NCBI GenBank assembly: GCA_937138395.1
Contig: CAKZPB010000113.1
Coordinates: 1 to 54,812, forward strand
Reading direction: 5' to 3'
DNA length: 54,812 nt
Source: an uncultured Pseudomonadota bacterium
GTDB lineage: Bacteria > Pseudomonadota > Gammaproteobacteria > Xanthomonadales > Wenzhouxiangellaceae
Positions 21,806-29,929 of this stretch are shown piece by piece (the first letter of the stretch is position 1; each line of letters begins with the position of its first letter). The notes under the pieces are model-generated. The model ran no database searches. It was given only the letters and a program-made list of their open reading frames with translations, and was not told the DNA's origin. The position numbers and the translations under genes were made by a program.

Positions 21806-22513
21806 ATGAAGCCGCTTAAACTATTCATCGTCGATGATGAGCCGCCTGCTGTAGAGCGGATGACAAGCCTGTTAGCCGACATGCCGGACGTCGAGATTGT
21901 CGGCTGTGAATCGCGCAGTGATCGCGTGCTCGAGCGTTGCGTCGAACTGGCGCCGGATGCCATCCTGCTGGATATCGAAATGCCCGGTCTGGATGGCATG
22001 CAATTGGCTACCAGGATTCATGACCTGAAATCACCGCCCCAGATTATCTTTGTGACCGCCTATGAAGACTATGCCGTCGATGCTTTCGGCCTTGAGGCCG
22101 TGGATTACCTGGTAAAACCCGTTCGGCCAGGCCGGTTACAGCAGGCGCTGAAGCGATTGCAGCCCGAGTCCGCTTACCTTGAAAGCGCACACCTCGCCGC
22201 CAGAATTGGTGATCGCCTGATCCGCTTGCCGCTGCAATCGGTGCGTGTATTGGTTGCCAGTGACAAATGCGTGATTGCACATAGCCTGGATGGCCAGAGT
22301 CTGCTCGATGGCAGCCTGAAGCAGATCGAAGAGCAATATCCAGGTCACTTTGTGCGCGTGCACCGAAATGCACTGGTCAGCCGGTCGCATATTCGATCGG
22401 TATACCGAAATTCGGACGGGATCGAACGGGTCGAAATCGAAGGCACCGACGTCCAGCCCGAGATCTCGCGTCGTAATCGCGGCGAGTTGAAACGCTGGTT
22501 GAAGCAATCATGA
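21806..22513 (+). CDS. algR: LytTR-type response regulator, AlgR-like
   Basis: 235 residues: a receiver domain (1-120) with DDE 10-12, phospho-Asp56 (ILLDIEMPGLDGM) and Lys in YLVKPV, then a LytTR DNA-binding domain (about 135-232) with VRVLVASDKCVIAH...GHFVRVHRNALVS. In Pseudomonas algR lies in the same order before hemC and hemD and is paired with the sensor AlgZ. No algZ is seen here; the upstream gene is an esterase. It overlaps hemC by 4 bases, so regulator and haem genes are co-expressed. Confidence 0.88.
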   Translation: MKPLKLFIVDDEPPAVERMTSLLADMPDVEIVGCESRSDRVLERCVELAPDAILLDIEMPGLDGMQLATRIHDLKSPPQIIFVTAYEDYAVDAFGLEAVDYLVKPVRPGRLQQALKRLQPESAYLESAHLAARIGDRLIRLPLQSVRVLVASDKCVIAHSLDGQSLLDGSLKQIEEQYPGHFVRVHRNALVSRSHIRSVYRNSDGIERVEIEGTDVQPEISRRNRGELKRWLKQS

Positions 22514-23427
22514 AGGACAATCGCCTGATTATTGCAACCCGAAAGAGCCGGCTGGCCCTCTGGCAAAGCCATTTTGTCATGCATGAGCTGATGCAAGCGT
22601 GGCCCGGGCTGGAAGTGGAGCTGTTGCCCCTCAGTACGCGCGGCGATGAGGTGCTGGATCAACCGTTGACGACCATTGGCGGCAAAGGCCTGTTTCTGAA
22701 AGAGCTGGAGCGTGCCCTGCTTGATGGGCGCGCAGATATTGCGGTGCATTCGTTGAAGGACGTGCCTGCTGAATCACCCGAGGGCCTGATGCTGGGCGCC
22801 GTATTGCCGCGTGCGGATGCCGAGGATGTTTGGATCAGTCGACATGGGCTATCGATCGGTCAGCTAGCGAGCGGCAGTCGCGTTGGCAGCTCCAGCCTGC
22901 GTCGCATGAGCCAGCTTTGTGCCGTGCGTAAAGATCTTGAGCTGGTTGGCCTGCGCGGCAATGTGGAGACTCGGTTGAAGGCGGTTGCGTCCGGACAGGT
23001 CGACGCGACGATTCTAGCCGCGGCCGGGTTGCGCAGACTCGATATCGAGCCGGAAAACGCAATCGAGCTGCCGCTGGAGGAGTGGCTGCCGGCGCCGGGG
23101 CAGGGTGTGATCACCGTTCAGTGCCGTGCGTCGGATTCGGCCGTGACAGAGCGGATCCGGGCCATCCACTGTAGCCATACCGCTGCGGTGGTTGCAGCCG
23201 AACGCGCGGTGGTGGAGCGCCTGGGCGGGGACTGCAGAATGCCACTGGCTGCGCTTGCTGTACTACGAGAAAATCAGCTGCGGCTCAAAGCACGATTGGG
23301 CAGTACTTCTGGGCTATTGATTGATTGCGATGAGACGGATACTATTGATAATGCGAAATCGCTCGGATCTCGAGTGGCTGACCAACTATTGGCCAAAGGA
23401 GGCCAGCAATTACTCGCTATTGACTAG
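22510..23427 (+). CDS. hemC: Hydroxymethylbilane synthase (porphobilinogen deaminase)
   Basis: 305 residues. Joins four porphobilinogen molecules in haem synthesis. Conserved parts are ATRKSRLALWQ, GGKGLFLKELE, HSLKDVP, VGSSSLRRMSQL, LRGNVETRL and the cofactor-attachment Cys242 (GGDCRMPLA), at the same number as in E. coli. It starts with ATG overlapping algR. A terminator and structured region follow before hemD. Confidence 0.96.
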   Translation: MKDNRLIIATRKSRLALWQSHFVMHELMQAWPGLEVELLPLSTRGDEVLDQPLTTIGGKGLFLKELERALLDGRADIAVHSLKDVPAESPEGLMLGAVLPRADAEDVWISRHGLSIGQLASGSRVGSSSLRRMSQLCAVRKDLELVGLRGNVETRLKAVASGQVDATILAAAGLRRLDIEPENAIELPLEEWLPAPGQGVITVQCRASDSAVTERIRAIHCSHTAAVVAAERAVVERLGGDCRMPLAALAVLRENQLRLKARLGSTSGLLIDCDETDTIDNAKSLGSRVADQLLAKGGQQLLAID

Positions 23428-23551
23428 TCATTCACGTTAGATCTGCATACTCAAATCTCTTATTGGAGTGATTAGAAAAAATAATCAATTGCATCTGGAC
23501 ATGAGTGTTTCATTTATGTAACAATTCGTTTCACTTGATACCAAGTTTGCT

Positions 23552-23692
23552 TTCCGGATGTCATCAACGACCTAGTTGACTGATGCACGTCCCCCTACTG
23601 CCAACGCCAACACGCAAGCCCCCAGTGTATTGGTTCGTTAGGTCAGACATCCGGAATTTATCCAAAAGACCTGCCTTCGGGCAGGTCTTTTT
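23552..23692 (+). ncRNA. Candidate structured small RNA with C-rich loops
   Basis: The 340-base gap between hemC and hemD has no ORF on this strand but carries a long nested hairpin. Perfect 11-bp arms TTCCGGATGTC (23552-23562) and GACATCCGGAA (23646-23656) enclose a second pair GACCTA/TAGGTC (23569-23574, 23639-23644) and an inner CCAACAC/GTG(TA)TTGG stem (23607-23613, 23625-23633). Two runs of five C (23591-23595 and 23619-23623) sit in predicted single-stranded positions. A complete intrinsic terminator ends the region at 23692. The flanking DNA upstream (23430-23550) is AT-rich and could hold the promoter. C-rich exposed loops recall Xanthomonas sRNA sX13, which pairs with G-rich targets; homology was not tested. 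It could instead be a leader or attenuator for hemD. Confidence 0.5.
23667..23692 (+). terminator. Intrinsic terminator between hemC and hemD
   Basis: Stem AGACCTGCC / GGCAGGTCT (9 bp) closed by the stable TTCG loop and followed by TTTTT. It would end hemC transcripts or the candidate small RNA, so hemD must be reached by read-through or its own promoter. Confidence 0.85.
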
Positions 23693-23767
23693 CGTACTGA
23701 ACAACATGCAACCGATGGATTGTTGACCAAGTATTCGATTGCATCTTCCAGGTGATATTCTGAAATC

Positions 23768-24517
23768 ATGAATATACCGTGTGTTGTCGTGACACGACCC
23801 GTACCCGATCATCAGCATCTGATGGATCAATTGTCCGGTCTCGGGCTCCAGGCGATCCACGCGCCAGCCTTCGAGCTGGAACCTCACACACTCGATGACG
23901 CCACCAGGCAAGGTCTGAATCGGTGCGAGCTGATGATTGCTGTCAGTCCAATGGCCGCACGCTCCGCTGTTGACCAGCTTTCACCCGAATTGCTCGGCCA
24001 GGTCCAATGGCTGGTTCCCGGTGCGGGGACAGCAGCAGTCCTCCAGCAGCATGGCTACAGCGCAGCGTATCCGCCGAAATCAAGTACCAGTGAGGCGCTG
24101 CTGAATTTGCAGGCACTCGAGCAGGTCAAGGGTAAAACCATCGGCCTGCTGAATGCACGGCAGGGTCGCCGACTGCTGCCCGAAACGCTGGCCGAGCGCG
24201 GCGCAACGGTAATCGAGGCTGAAATCTATCGAAGAATCGCGCTGCCGCTTCCGCAATGCCTGCTGAAACAACTTGATTTACCCGCCGGCGAAGCAGTCCC
24301 TGTTGCCACATTGATCAGTAGCCGGAATGCATTCGATCATTTAGCGGATGCGCTTGAGCCGGATCGTCGCCAGCGCTGGTTGAAGGGCAGGTTCATTGTT
24401 TCCTCAGCGCGTTTGTCAAACCATTTGCAAGGCAAGGGCGCGCAACGAATCCTGGTGGCGGATGGCGCTGGCGATAATGATATGCTCGATGCATTGGCCC
24501 GGTCTGGATGGTGCTGA
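23768..24517 (+). CDS. hemD: Uroporphyrinogen-III synthase
   Basis: 249 residues. Closes and inverts ring D of hydroxymethylbilane to uroporphyrinogen III. HemD is poorly conserved, but the two-domain pattern is visible: VVVTRPVPDHQHLMDQL at the start, LMIAVSPMAARSAVDQL, WLVPGAGTAAVLQQHGYS, GKTIGLLNARQGRRLLPETLAERGATV and YRRIALP. The context after hemC and before hemX/hemY makes the call firm. Confidence 0.9.
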   Translation: MNIPCVVVTRPVPDHQHLMDQLSGLGLQAIHAPAFELEPHTLDDATRQGLNRCELMIAVSPMAARSAVDQLSPELLGQVQWLVPGAGTAAVLQQHGYSAAYPPKSSTSEALLNLQALEQVKGKTIGLLNARQGRRLLPETLAERGATVIEAEIYRRIALPLPQCLLKQLDLPAGEAVPVATLISSRNAFDHLADALEPDRRQRWLKGRFIVSSARLSNHLQGKGAQRILVADGAGDNDMLDALARSGWC

Positions 24518-27549: not shown

Positions 27550-28533
27550 TCAGGAGACTGGGGATTCAGCCGGCACCAGATAGTGCATGCTGAACAATTG
27601 ATCGGGGTCGGTCCAGGTCTCGATCAGCGTCAGACCGGCCTGCTGGGCGAGTGCAGTGAAGGAAGCAACCGAATATTTGTGGCTGTTTTCAGTGTGAATG
27701 CTGTTCCCTTTCGAAAACACGAACTCGCGCCCATCGAGTTGGATTCGTGTGTCGCGTTGTGCGACGAGGTGCATTTCGATTCGCTCGAATCGATCGTTGT
27801 AACGGGCTTCGTGCCTGAAATCACCGATTTGCAGGTTGGCGCCGAGCTCGTCCCGCAAGCGCTTGAGCAAATTGAGATTGAAGTCTGCAGTCACGCCGGC
27901 CGCGTCGTCATAGGCTGCCAGCAGTTGATCGGTGGATTTGATCAGATCGACGCCGATCAGAATGCCGCCGCTGGCTTCGGTCATGCGTTTCATCCGGTTC
28001 AGAAACTGCTTTGCCTGGTCGCGGTTGAAATTGCTGATGGTTGAGCCTGGAAAATACACGACGCGCCGCCGCGCGGGCGGCTCGAGCTGCAGCACTTCAT
28101 CTGGAATATCCTGCGTATAGTCGGCATTGAGCGGGCGCACGTCCAGGTTCGGGTAATCGTGCTGAAGGCGGTCAACGGATGCGGCCAGTGCTTGCGCAGA
28201 AATTTCGATCGGCGTGTAGGCGCGCAGATGTTCTGCAGCATTCAGCAAGAGCCGGATCTTGGTGCCTGCGCCCGAACCGAATTCGATAATGTGAGCTGCC
28301 GGTCCGATACGCTCGGCAATGGCATTGGCATGGGCCTGGTGCAGCGCCAGATCAGCGCGGGTCACGTAATATTCAGCGGTCTGGGTTATGGCCTCAAACA
28401 GGGCTGAACCACGTTCGTCATACAAATATTTGCATGGGATTTCCGGCTGTTGCTGAGCAAGCCCCTGAAGGACTTCATCGAGAAACACGTCGGATTGTTC
28501 GGTCAGTTCTGCTTGAGGTTTGTTCTCAGTCAT
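27550..28533 (-). CDS. egtD: L-histidine N-alpha-methyltransferase EgtD
   Basis: 327 residues. Trimethylates histidine to hercynine with SAM, the first step to ergothioneine. Family signs are IPCKYLYDERGSALFEAIT, TAEYYVTRADL, the SAM site IIEFGSGAGTKIRLLL, YTPIEIS, VYFPGSTISNFNRDQAKQFL and GGILIGVDLIKS. ATG 28533 lies one base after the egtB stop, so the pair is one operon (egtB first). It is unlike the mycobacterial five-gene cluster: only egtB and egtD are here. Confidence 0.95.
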   Translation of the reverse strand: MTENKPQAELTEQSDVFLDEVLQGLAQQQPEIPCKYLYDERGSALFEAITQTAEYYVTRADLALHQAHANAIAERIGPAAHIIEFGSGAGTKIRLLLNAAEHLRAYTPIEISAQALAASVDRLQHDYPNLDVRPLNADYTQDIPDEVLQLEPPARRRVVYFPGSTISNFNRDQAKQFLNRMKRMTEASGGILIGVDLIKSTDQLLAAYDDAAGVTADFNLNLLKRLRDELGANLQIGDFRHEARYNDRFERIEMHLVAQRDTRIQLDGREFVFSKGNSIHTENSHKYSVASFTALAQQAGLTLIETWTDPDQLFSMHYLVPAESPVS

Positions 28534-28534
28534 T

Positions 28535-29929
28535 TTATTCGCAGTCTCTGGCCAATCGCAGACCGCTGAATTGCCAGCGATCGTTCGGATAGAAAAAATT
28601 TCGATAGCTCGGTCGCACATGACCCGCCGGCGTCGCGCAGCTGCCTCCGCGCAATACCATCTGGTTGGCCATGAACTTGCCATTGTATTCGCCAATAGCA
28701 CCTTCAGCGGCGCGAAAGCCCGGGTAGGGAGCGTAACTGGACTGGGTCCATTCCCAGACTGTACCGAACAGTTGTTGCAAGGCCACACTGGACGTGCTGT
28801 CGGCGGGTTCAGGATGGTACCGCTGCAGGTCGGCGAAGTGACCCTCAATGGGTGGCGCATGCTGGCGTGCGGCCTGTTCCCATTCTGCCTCGGAAGGCAA
28901 TCGCGCGTCTTGCCACTGCGCATATGCCATTGCTTCATACAAACTCAGGTGACAGACCGGATCCTGTGGACGAATACGGTTTTTGCCGGTCAGGGTATGC
29001 TGAAACCAGTGCTGGTCGTGCTGAAACCAGTACAGCGGACACTGGATTTGATGCTGCTGCACCCAGGCCCAGCCATCGGAAAGCCAGAGATCAGGATTCC
29101 GGTAGCCCCCGGCTTCGATGAATTGCATGAATTCCCCACAATTGACCGGCCGATGGGCCAGTTCGTAATCGCTGTTCAAATGCACCGTGTGGGCGGGAAA
29201 TTCATTGTCAAAGGCAAACCCCTCATGGTCGTTTGGTAAGCCGATCGTAACCGGTCCGCCCTTGAAGCGAATCCATACCAGCTCAGGTGAACGCACATCA
29301 GACGGTTCCGCTGTCTGCCCCAGCGCTGTCGCAAGCGGATTGTGTGGCAGGCAGGCCTTGTAATCGGTAATGATCAGTTCCTGGTGCTGCTGTTCATGGT
29401 TGATTCCAGTCAGAATCAGGCTCGCCAATGCATCCCAATGAGTGGGGTCGGTACGCTCGATCAGGTCAACCACTGCGTCGTCAATGGTCGCGCGGTAAGA
29501 CGATACCTCGCGATGGTCAGGTCTTGATATCAATGATCGTAATGCGCGCGGATGCTGACGACCGATGCCGTTGTAGTAGCTGTTGAACAGTTCACAATAG
29601 AGTGGATTGACCCACGACCACTCCGGCTTGAACTTTTTCAGCACGAAGGTCTCAAAAAACCAGCTGGTGTGTGCACGGTGCCATTTGATAGGGCTGGCTT
29701 CAGGCATGGCCTGGATATTCTGGTCCTCCGGACCAAGATCGACGATCAGATTCTCGGTTGTATGTCGAACCGACTGAAAGGCGTTGATCAAGTTCTCAGC
29801 GGAAAAGTGGTTGCGCTTCAGTGCATTGGATTCGCTGGGCTTAACGGAATCTTTAGCCGTTTTGTGCAATAAGCTAGGCATGAATCGGTTATTTGCGTTG
29901 GTTCGCTGATCGATTATCGCTGAAACCAT
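28535..29929 (-). CDS. egtB: Ergothioneine biosynthesis protein EgtB (sulfoxide synthase)
   Basis: 464 residues. Non-haem iron enzyme joining a thiol substrate to hercynine with O2. The N-terminal DinB_2 domain carries the iron-binding HxxxHxE region NHEQQHQEL. The C-terminal FGE-sulfatase domain has LPSEAEWEQAARQ, GTVWEWTQSSY and VLRGGSCATP...RPSYRNFFYP. Two ATG starts are possible: 29929 (used) or 29881 (MPSLLHKTA); neither has a good ribosome-binding site. No egtA, egtC or egtE is nearby, so the thiol donor (gamma-Glu-Cys or Cys) and the C-S lyase step are open. Confidence 0.94.
   Translation of the reverse strand: MVSAIIDQRTNANNRFMPSLLHKTAKDSVKPSESNALKRNHFSAENLINAFQSVRHTTENLIVDLGPEDQNIQAMPEASPIKWHRAHTSWFFETFVLKKFKPEWSWVNPLYCELFNSYYNGIGRQHPRALRSLISRPDHREVSSYRATIDDAVVDLIERTDPTHWDALASLILTGINHEQQHQELIITDYKACLPHNPLATALGQTAEPSDVRSPELVWIRFKGGPVTIGLPNDHEGFAFDNEFPAHTVHLNSDYELAHRPVNCGEFMQFIEAGGYRNPDLWLSDGWAWVQQHQIQCPLYWFQHDQHWFQHTLTGKNRIRPQDPVCHLSLYEAMAYAQWQDARLPSEAEWEQAARQHAPPIEGHFADLQRYHPEPADSTSSVALQQLFGTVWEWTQSSYAPYPGFRAAEGAIGEYNGKFMANQMVLRGGSCATPAGHVRPSYRNFFYPNDRWQFSGLRLARDCE

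Follow-up and report, generated by a model that had tools for sequence, protein, structure and literature searches.

What is the C-rich, structured stretch that parts hemC from hemD in an uncultured bacterium of the Wenzhouxiangellaceae, and does it act on the haem genes between which it lies? A first-pass annotation of the window, that is, the whole 54,812-nt contig (CAKZPB010000113.1) analyzed here, had placed a candidate small RNA at this site and had offered two readings of it: a new trans-acting RNA or a haem-linked attenuator. The placement is right, with hemC ending at 23427 and hemD starting at 23768 (Table 1), and the architecture that was read from the letters proved accurate as well. 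The outer 11-bp stem is perfect, and it encloses a nested stem (23569-23575 with 23638-23644) that contains six Watson-Crick pairs. The predicted fold continues with a further helix (23578-23588 with 23625-23635) and ends in a small inner hairpin at 23595-23618, which is flanked by two runs of five C at 23591-23595 and 23619-23623. Nine of these ten C residues are unpaired in the predicted fold; C 23595, the last of the first run, pairs within the inner hairpin. The TTCG-loop terminator, described as following within 10 bases, begins seven bases past the stem. Two features go beyond that description, namely, a conserved stretch between the C-runs and a predicted promoter at 23496-23525.

Table 1. 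Features of the hemC-hemD region, in window coordinates
Feature	Position	Strand	Basis
hemC, flanking gene on the 5' side	22510..23427	+	Pfam PF01379/PF03900
RNA promoter: -35 TGGACA (23496-23501), 18-nt spacer with extended TG, -10 AACAAT (23520-23525)	23496..23525	+	consensus scan and family pattern
Small RNA, ~161 nt, expected start to terminator end	23532..23692	+	predicted extent, from promoter, structure and terminator
Conserved 109-nt structured core (model R1)	23549..23657	+	covariance model match, alignment A1 and covariation
Outer helix P1, 5' arm	23552..23562	+	pairs with 23646-23656; covariation
Inner helix P2, 5' arm	23569..23588 (23569-23575 and 23578-23588)	+	covariation
Invariant apical region of 33 nt: two C5 runs around a small hairpin with a CA-rich loop	23591..23623	+	identity across family copies
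Inner helix P2, 3' arm	23625..23644	+	covariation
Outer helix P1, 3' arm	23646..23656	+	covariation
Intrinsic terminator, TTCG loop	23664..23692	+	sequence; family-wide terminator scan
hemD, flanking gene on the 3' side	23768..24517	+	Pfam PF02602

The segment 23553-23694 (142 nt) has a predicted folding energy of -57.6 kcal/mol, compared with -32.5 +/- 3.6 kcal/mol for 200 dinucleotide shuffles (z -7.0), none of which was equally stable. A search of the whole window against Rfam 15 returned no match at the gathering score. At E values up to 10, the RNA region gave six matches, all below gathering, of which five fell in or around the terminator and the sixth, Phe_leader (26 bits against a gathering score of 55), lay across the hairpin and terminator.

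Relatives carry the same element. With a BLAST-type search, 30 of 61 genomes gave matches; the window's own is among them, and all 30 belong to its family. The covariance search in relatives that had been proposed at first pass extended this: model R1, built from 30 copies, matched 36 of the 43 family genomes (for the window core, which is one of those 30 copies, the match scored 114 bits with an E of 3.9e-23). Under stricter filters, with which weak matches are lost, R1 matched 40 of 299 genomes across the order, these being the same 36 plus 4 genomes of a second family, f8, and in a class-wide sample of 369 genomes it matched the window's own only. When f8 was searched by itself, the same 4 of its 39 genomes were matched. 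In the model search, the hemC-hemD RNA occurs once per genome. Five of the seven family genomes without it belong to genera g3, g4, and g5, and the other two, G019 and G035, are small genomes of g6.

The fold is supported by covariation. Alignment A1 contains the 30 of 36 family copies that were fetched first, leaving aside those of the second family, and 29 of its 30 rows have no internal gap. Standard pairs fill 97.7% of its 989 paired cells, and 17 of 33 pairs show two-sided changes; none of 500 shuffles reached any of five measures, a test that is inflated by relatedness. Controls that retain the relatedness were made by sliding the partners by 1 to 3 columns, and only 25 to 38% of cells then pair. 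Compensatory changes in the 11-bp arms, which the first-pass annotation had singled out as a check, are present: helix 1 aligns as 10 pairs, 4 of them with two-sided changes and with 100% of cells paired. Helix 2 (P2) has 18 pairs, 13 with two-sided changes, and 95.9% of its cells are paired. The small inner hairpin (helix 3, five pairs) shows no covariation in A1, as its pairs barely vary. Among the paired cells of 34 copies there are 180 G-U and 2 A-C combinations, and therefore the transcribed strand is that of hemC. A coding peptide was also considered and rejected. Every one of the six frames is interrupted by a stop in 7 or more of 34 copies, so that a peptide does not explain the conservation.

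Does the RNA belong to the haem operon? The earlier statement that it interrupts an otherwise tight operon holds where loci can be compared. The hemC locus was read in 15 genomes that lack the RNA, and in 7 of them a hemD-like frame lies -4 to 7 nt from hemC: two of the window's family (G008 and G012), two of the second family (G043 and G053), and three from elsewhere (G040, G042, and G045). The other eight have no hemD-like frame directly after hemC; it lies 491 and 846 nt past hemC in G009 and G013, and in G007, G037, G038, G039, G046, and G047 none was found in the sequenced stretch examined after hemC. RNA-less neighbors thus abut, and where hemC and hemD are still adjacent the RNA is present or absent as a unit. 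Where the RNA is present, both hemC upstream and hemD downstream were detected in 32 of the 36 family copies, including G006, which has ~1.3 kb between hemC and the RNA. Of the remaining four, G028 gave only the hemC flank, the contig of G025 starts past the point where hemC would be seen, and in G030 and G065 neither gene was detected in the RNA locus. In the second family, G158 has both genes as neighbors, G074 and G193 have hemC upstream and, by inspection, a hemD-like frame downstream, and G114 has hemC upstream on a contig that ends soon past the RNA.

This regular position, together with a terminator that lies upstream of hemD in most family copies, favors a cis-acting attenuator or riboswitch that would control hemD from the hemC transcript. 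Several observations argue against it. The first comes from G030, which has no hemC match and yet keeps both the promoter motif and the RNA, here between a carboxylesterase gene and a frame in the hemX position that has no Pfam match. The RNA locus of G065 is arranged in the same way, except that its frame has a weak match to hemX (E 9e-4) and that hemY comes next. The listed completeness is 95% for G030 and 63% for G065, and so the argument for independence from haem rests mainly on G030 and its closed-up locus. As a side observation, a hemC match is absent from three small family genomes, G019, G030, and G035, among the 22 genomes searched, which suggests that haem synthesis has been lost in them.

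The second observation is a promoter motif of the RNA's own. In the window it agrees with the consensus at 9 of 12 positions, a weak signal alone, given that 801 nt contain two such sites against 1.1 in shuffles; transcription would be expected to start near 23532. The family pattern is far more telling: T[AG]GAC[AT]-N17/18-NANNNT, with TG before the second hexamer, occurs upstream of the RNA in all 36 family loci and nowhere else in the 223,530 strand-bases of those loci, a count that expresses specificity and is not a blind test, since the pattern was derived from the same loci. At the other end, a strict intrinsic terminator, variable in sequence from copy to copy, was located at this place by our own scan in 31 of 36 family copies. 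Of the five that the scan missed, three have a G+C-rich hairpin and then T-rich sequence by eye; the other two, G030 and G065, do not, and none of the four second-family copies has a terminator by the same scan. (A simpler scan of the window did not list the terminator at 23664-23692, although it is visible in the sequence.) In single-sequence folds the hairpin and terminator coexist, and the predicted folds, which sample the alternatives rather than exhaust them, contain no competing antiterminator. With its promoter motif in 36 of 36 loci, its persistence in G030, the absence of hemC and hemD from the G030 and G065 loci, its lack of a terminator in the second family, and short copies of it at other loci where hemC and hemD are missing from the flanks (see below), the RNA is very unlikely to be an attenuator.

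We consider a separate small-RNA gene to be the strong reading of this comparative evidence. The RNA would be transcribed alone, from its own sigma-70-type promoter motif and mostly with its own terminator, and the hemC-hemD position would be its address and not its function. The other half of the original proposal, a new trans-acting RNA, thereby comes forward: besides the promoter motif, the terminator in most family copies, and the covarying stems, the RNA has an invariant loop and related hairpins elsewhere, and it is present in a genome with no hemC match. Trans action is likely, because the RNA persists without a hemC match and because its loop recurs on short hairpins. That it acts in trans through C-rich seeds, from a free-standing gene between hemC and hemD, is the complete explanation that we prefer, with a confidence somewhat above even.

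The loop is the most striking part of the molecule. Of the 36 family copies, all but two (G030 and G065) agree letter for letter over positions 23591-23623. In the 34 that agree, the stems on either side have a mean column identity of 81 to 82%, with 23 of 76 columns invariant. That a 33-nt loop stays unchanged between genera while its stems turn over suggests a very strongly constrained partner. The second family keeps the loop in part: nearly whole in G114, without the first C-run in G158, and shortened in G074 and G193. An asymmetric internal loop at about alignment columns 16 to 21 forms a second unpaired stretch, which is also largely conserved. Viral contigs were searched for 28 nt of the loop and gave no exact match. 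A 13-letter string of it occurs once each in two papers, on tunicates and on Shewanella, as far as the available text of these goes.

The same loop, or a slightly shortened version of it, also sits on a different, G+C-rich 12-bp stem in eight short hairpins from six genomes (G010, G016, G022, and G064 once each and G017 and G025 twice each). Six of these came from BLAST with the window region and two from model R1, and several miss two or three loop letters. Judged by eye, six of the eight lie a few bases past a -10-like box (TGTGCTAGGAT and variants). In the six that were checked, the fetched flanks gave no match to any of eight window proteins, among them those of hemC and hemD. Model R2, built on the eight short sequences, is not significant for covariation alone, with one pair showing a two-sided change and 264 of 500 shuffles scoring as high. 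The recurrence of the loop on these stand-alone hairpins already marks out the functional unit and opens it to direct testing. The short hairpins could be stripped-down siblings that present the same module.

Dispersed hairpins of this kind raise the possibility of a mobile or repeat-type element, REP- or MITE-like, that sits between hemC and hemD by chance, the more so as two short copies (L098 and L104) lie near AbiEi/AbiEii pairs and one (L099) lies near a SIR2-like gene and a transposase. A fourth has a Toprim/AAA protein and TatD nearby. The copies are few, and such neighbors may reflect no more than residence in accessory DNA. A mobile element would not readily account for the hemC-hemD copy, which stays at its site in two families, occurs once per genome in the model search, and combines a promoter motif with stems that covary, and we regard this explanation as extremely improbable. 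Separately, two weaker matches, one in G010 (E 1e-5) and one beside the G022 copy (E 1e-3), have the stem of the short hairpins with other loops (L097:8124-8194 and L101:8471-8540; the one at L097 begins 115 bp past a copy with the usual loop), and four further matches were obtained at E values of 0.1 to 0.35. There may be a larger group of promoter-plus-hairpin elements whose loops are exchangeable.

If the separate small-RNA gene acts through its C-runs, which mRNAs would it pair with? The first-pass annotation had pointed to G-rich ribosome-binding sites, as in sX13 of Xanthomonas, and G-run enrichment of this kind was not seen at the 43, 116, and 137 start sites sampled from RNA-bearing genomes. 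With gene starts picked by a simple rule that favors Shine-Dalgarno matches, which makes the test only a rough one, GGGG occurs at 5 of 43 start regions in the window (4.5 expected), at 8 of 116 in G003 (27.6 expected), and at 15 of 137 in G017 (25.6 expected), while in RNA-lacking G008 it occurs at 6 of 131 (12.8 expected). Ahead of start codons, GGGG is thus rarer than expected from shuffles in the samples from G003, G017, and G008 (L116-L145). Nor did the loop prefer sampled start regions over gene interiors more than shuffled loops did. These sequence counts give no support for sX13-like control of G-rich ribosome-binding sites on a broad scale; there could be a few targets with G-rich start-site motifs.

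Longer complements were sought in the 43 family genomes. For the 3' half of the loop (16-mer, 2 mismatches) there were 99 matches, of which 39 are copies of the RNA, leaving 60 against 77 for the reversed control; for the 5' half (14-mer, 1 mismatch) there were 50, of which 43 are RNA copies, leaving 7 against 27. Long antisense targets were rejected on this basis, as there is no excess over reversed-pattern controls once the RNA copies are set aside. One exact 14-mer complement, in G030:C110, does not belong to a copy of the hairpin and probably falls within coding sequence. Pairing with rRNA was likewise tried and rejected, using E. coli rRNA as a stand-in: the longest exact match to 16S, to 23S, and to 5S rRNA is 7 nt, within the shuffled range, and of 50 shuffled loops, 40, 6, and 27, respectively, did as well as or better than the loop in best duplex energy.

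Known RNAs help to place these results. GcvB R1 is a stretch of ~30 nt that is conserved far above the rest of its RNA through pairing with many mRNAs, and in this respect the loop described here is similar. R1 is G/U-rich, however, and binds C/A-rich targets, whereas the present loop is C/A-rich itself and stands at the tip of a hairpin. Because conserved stretches this long are known from multi-target RNAs such as GcvB, antisense pairing through short seeds is our first choice: the apical region would be the working part of the RNA, most likely offering short C-rich seeds to several mRNAs, and a constraint shared by several targets would freeze its sequence. A frozen stretch of 33 nt is longer than most pairing seeds, which counts against an antisense reading.

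A protein partner is a serious rival. The invariant apical region may be recognized by a conserved RNA-binding protein, which the RNA would sequester or guide, with the short hairpins serving as extra sites; 6S, CsrB, and CrcZ are models for RNAs that work on a protein in this manner, and they too carry conserved unpaired motifs on variable stems. Such a partner would fit the freezing of the whole 33 nt, beyond the C-runs, in 34 of 36 copies, as well as the appearance of the apical module on a different stem, the lack of an excess of complementary targets, and the conservation of the second unpaired stretch at columns 16 to 21. Nevertheless, recognition would have to be tolerant, because the loop is shortened in G074 and G193 and is incomplete, by two or three letters, in several short hairpins. 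Also, unlike these models, the loop has neither GGA nor a repeated A-rich motif nor a 6S-type bubble, and there is one site per molecule. We regard protein binding as a substantial minority possibility, well short of even.

Other C-rich RNAs offer resemblances at the level of principle. The 6C RNA family, of which we take mycobacterial B11 to be a member, comes from another phylum and has a different architecture, and 6C was not among the six Rfam matches at E values up to 10. The likeness lies in stems that present C-rich loops in a short RNA; B11 is the subject of PMC10470900 and PMC12395582. Comparison with sX13 gave a mixed outcome, with agreement in the exposed C-runs and disagreement in architecture and genomic place. 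As described, sX13 is an intergenic RNA of 115 nt with three stem-loops bearing 4C, 4C, and 5C, located downstream of polA and reported only from the Xanthomonadaceae (PMC3771888). The present RNA is alike in size (~161 nt), in having C-runs exposed in loops, and in being intergenic with its own gene. In contrast to the three sX13 stem-loops with one C-run each, it forms one long hairpin in which two C5 runs flank an invariant CA-rich hairpin, it is located at hemC-hemD rather than next to polA, and enrichment of the G-rich start-site motifs expected of sX13-like targets was not seen in our samples, although the targets could be few. The likeness is a resemblance in principle only. Literature on hemC/hemD small RNAs, Wenzhouxiangella small RNAs, sX13 and C-rich loops, and candidate structured RNAs did not contain the element in the portions available, which is no proof that it is unpublished. 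What is added here is a strongly supported structured RNA that is covered by no Rfam 15 family at the gathering score.

Upstream of the hairpin there is a further regularity. The leader from promoter to hairpin varies from 21 to 81 nt across the family, and 28 of the 36 leaders contain GGGG, where shuffles predict 5.1. This enrichment despite variable length would suit a self-gated RNA, in which the leader G-run pairs with an apical C-run and switches the molecule between closed and open states. So would the under-representation of GGGG upstream of genes in two of the three RNA-bearing samples (G003 and G017), and also second-family G158, which by eye lacks both the 5' C-run and the leader G-run. 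Yet the window copy itself has no leader G-run, exact complements of the loop in the leader are, at their longest, little longer than those in shuffled leaders (mean 5.4 versus 4.7), and the loop is invariant, so that covariation cannot test the pairing. Self-gating is very unlikely on balance. Individual leaders, for example those of L004 and L019, have G-runs able to pair with the loop C-run, and the leader of L017 has GGCAGTAG instead of a G-run, which is complementary to another part of the loop.

A more speculative proposal, to which we give limited credence, would treat the RNA as a modular device. A frozen 33-nt domain with a conserved partner would be carried on two unrelated scaffolds, the long hemC-hemD hairpin and minimal promoter-plus-hairpin elements, some of them beside AbiE or SIR2-like genes; the minimal elements might act as sponges or satellites, and the leader G-run might gate the domain.

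Two minor observations concern the surroundings of the RNA. Second-family loci L071 and L072 share a different conserved stretch (TTTACGATAGTGTTCGTACTAAG) about 50 to 80 nt upstream of the RNA model match, recognizable also in L070, slightly further up; it is perhaps another promoter or operator. In the window, the minus strand at 27550-29929 has in a row a histidine-specific methyltransferase frame and an FGE-sulfatase/DinB frame (Pfam), which we take to be an EgtD/EgtB-like ergothioneine pair.
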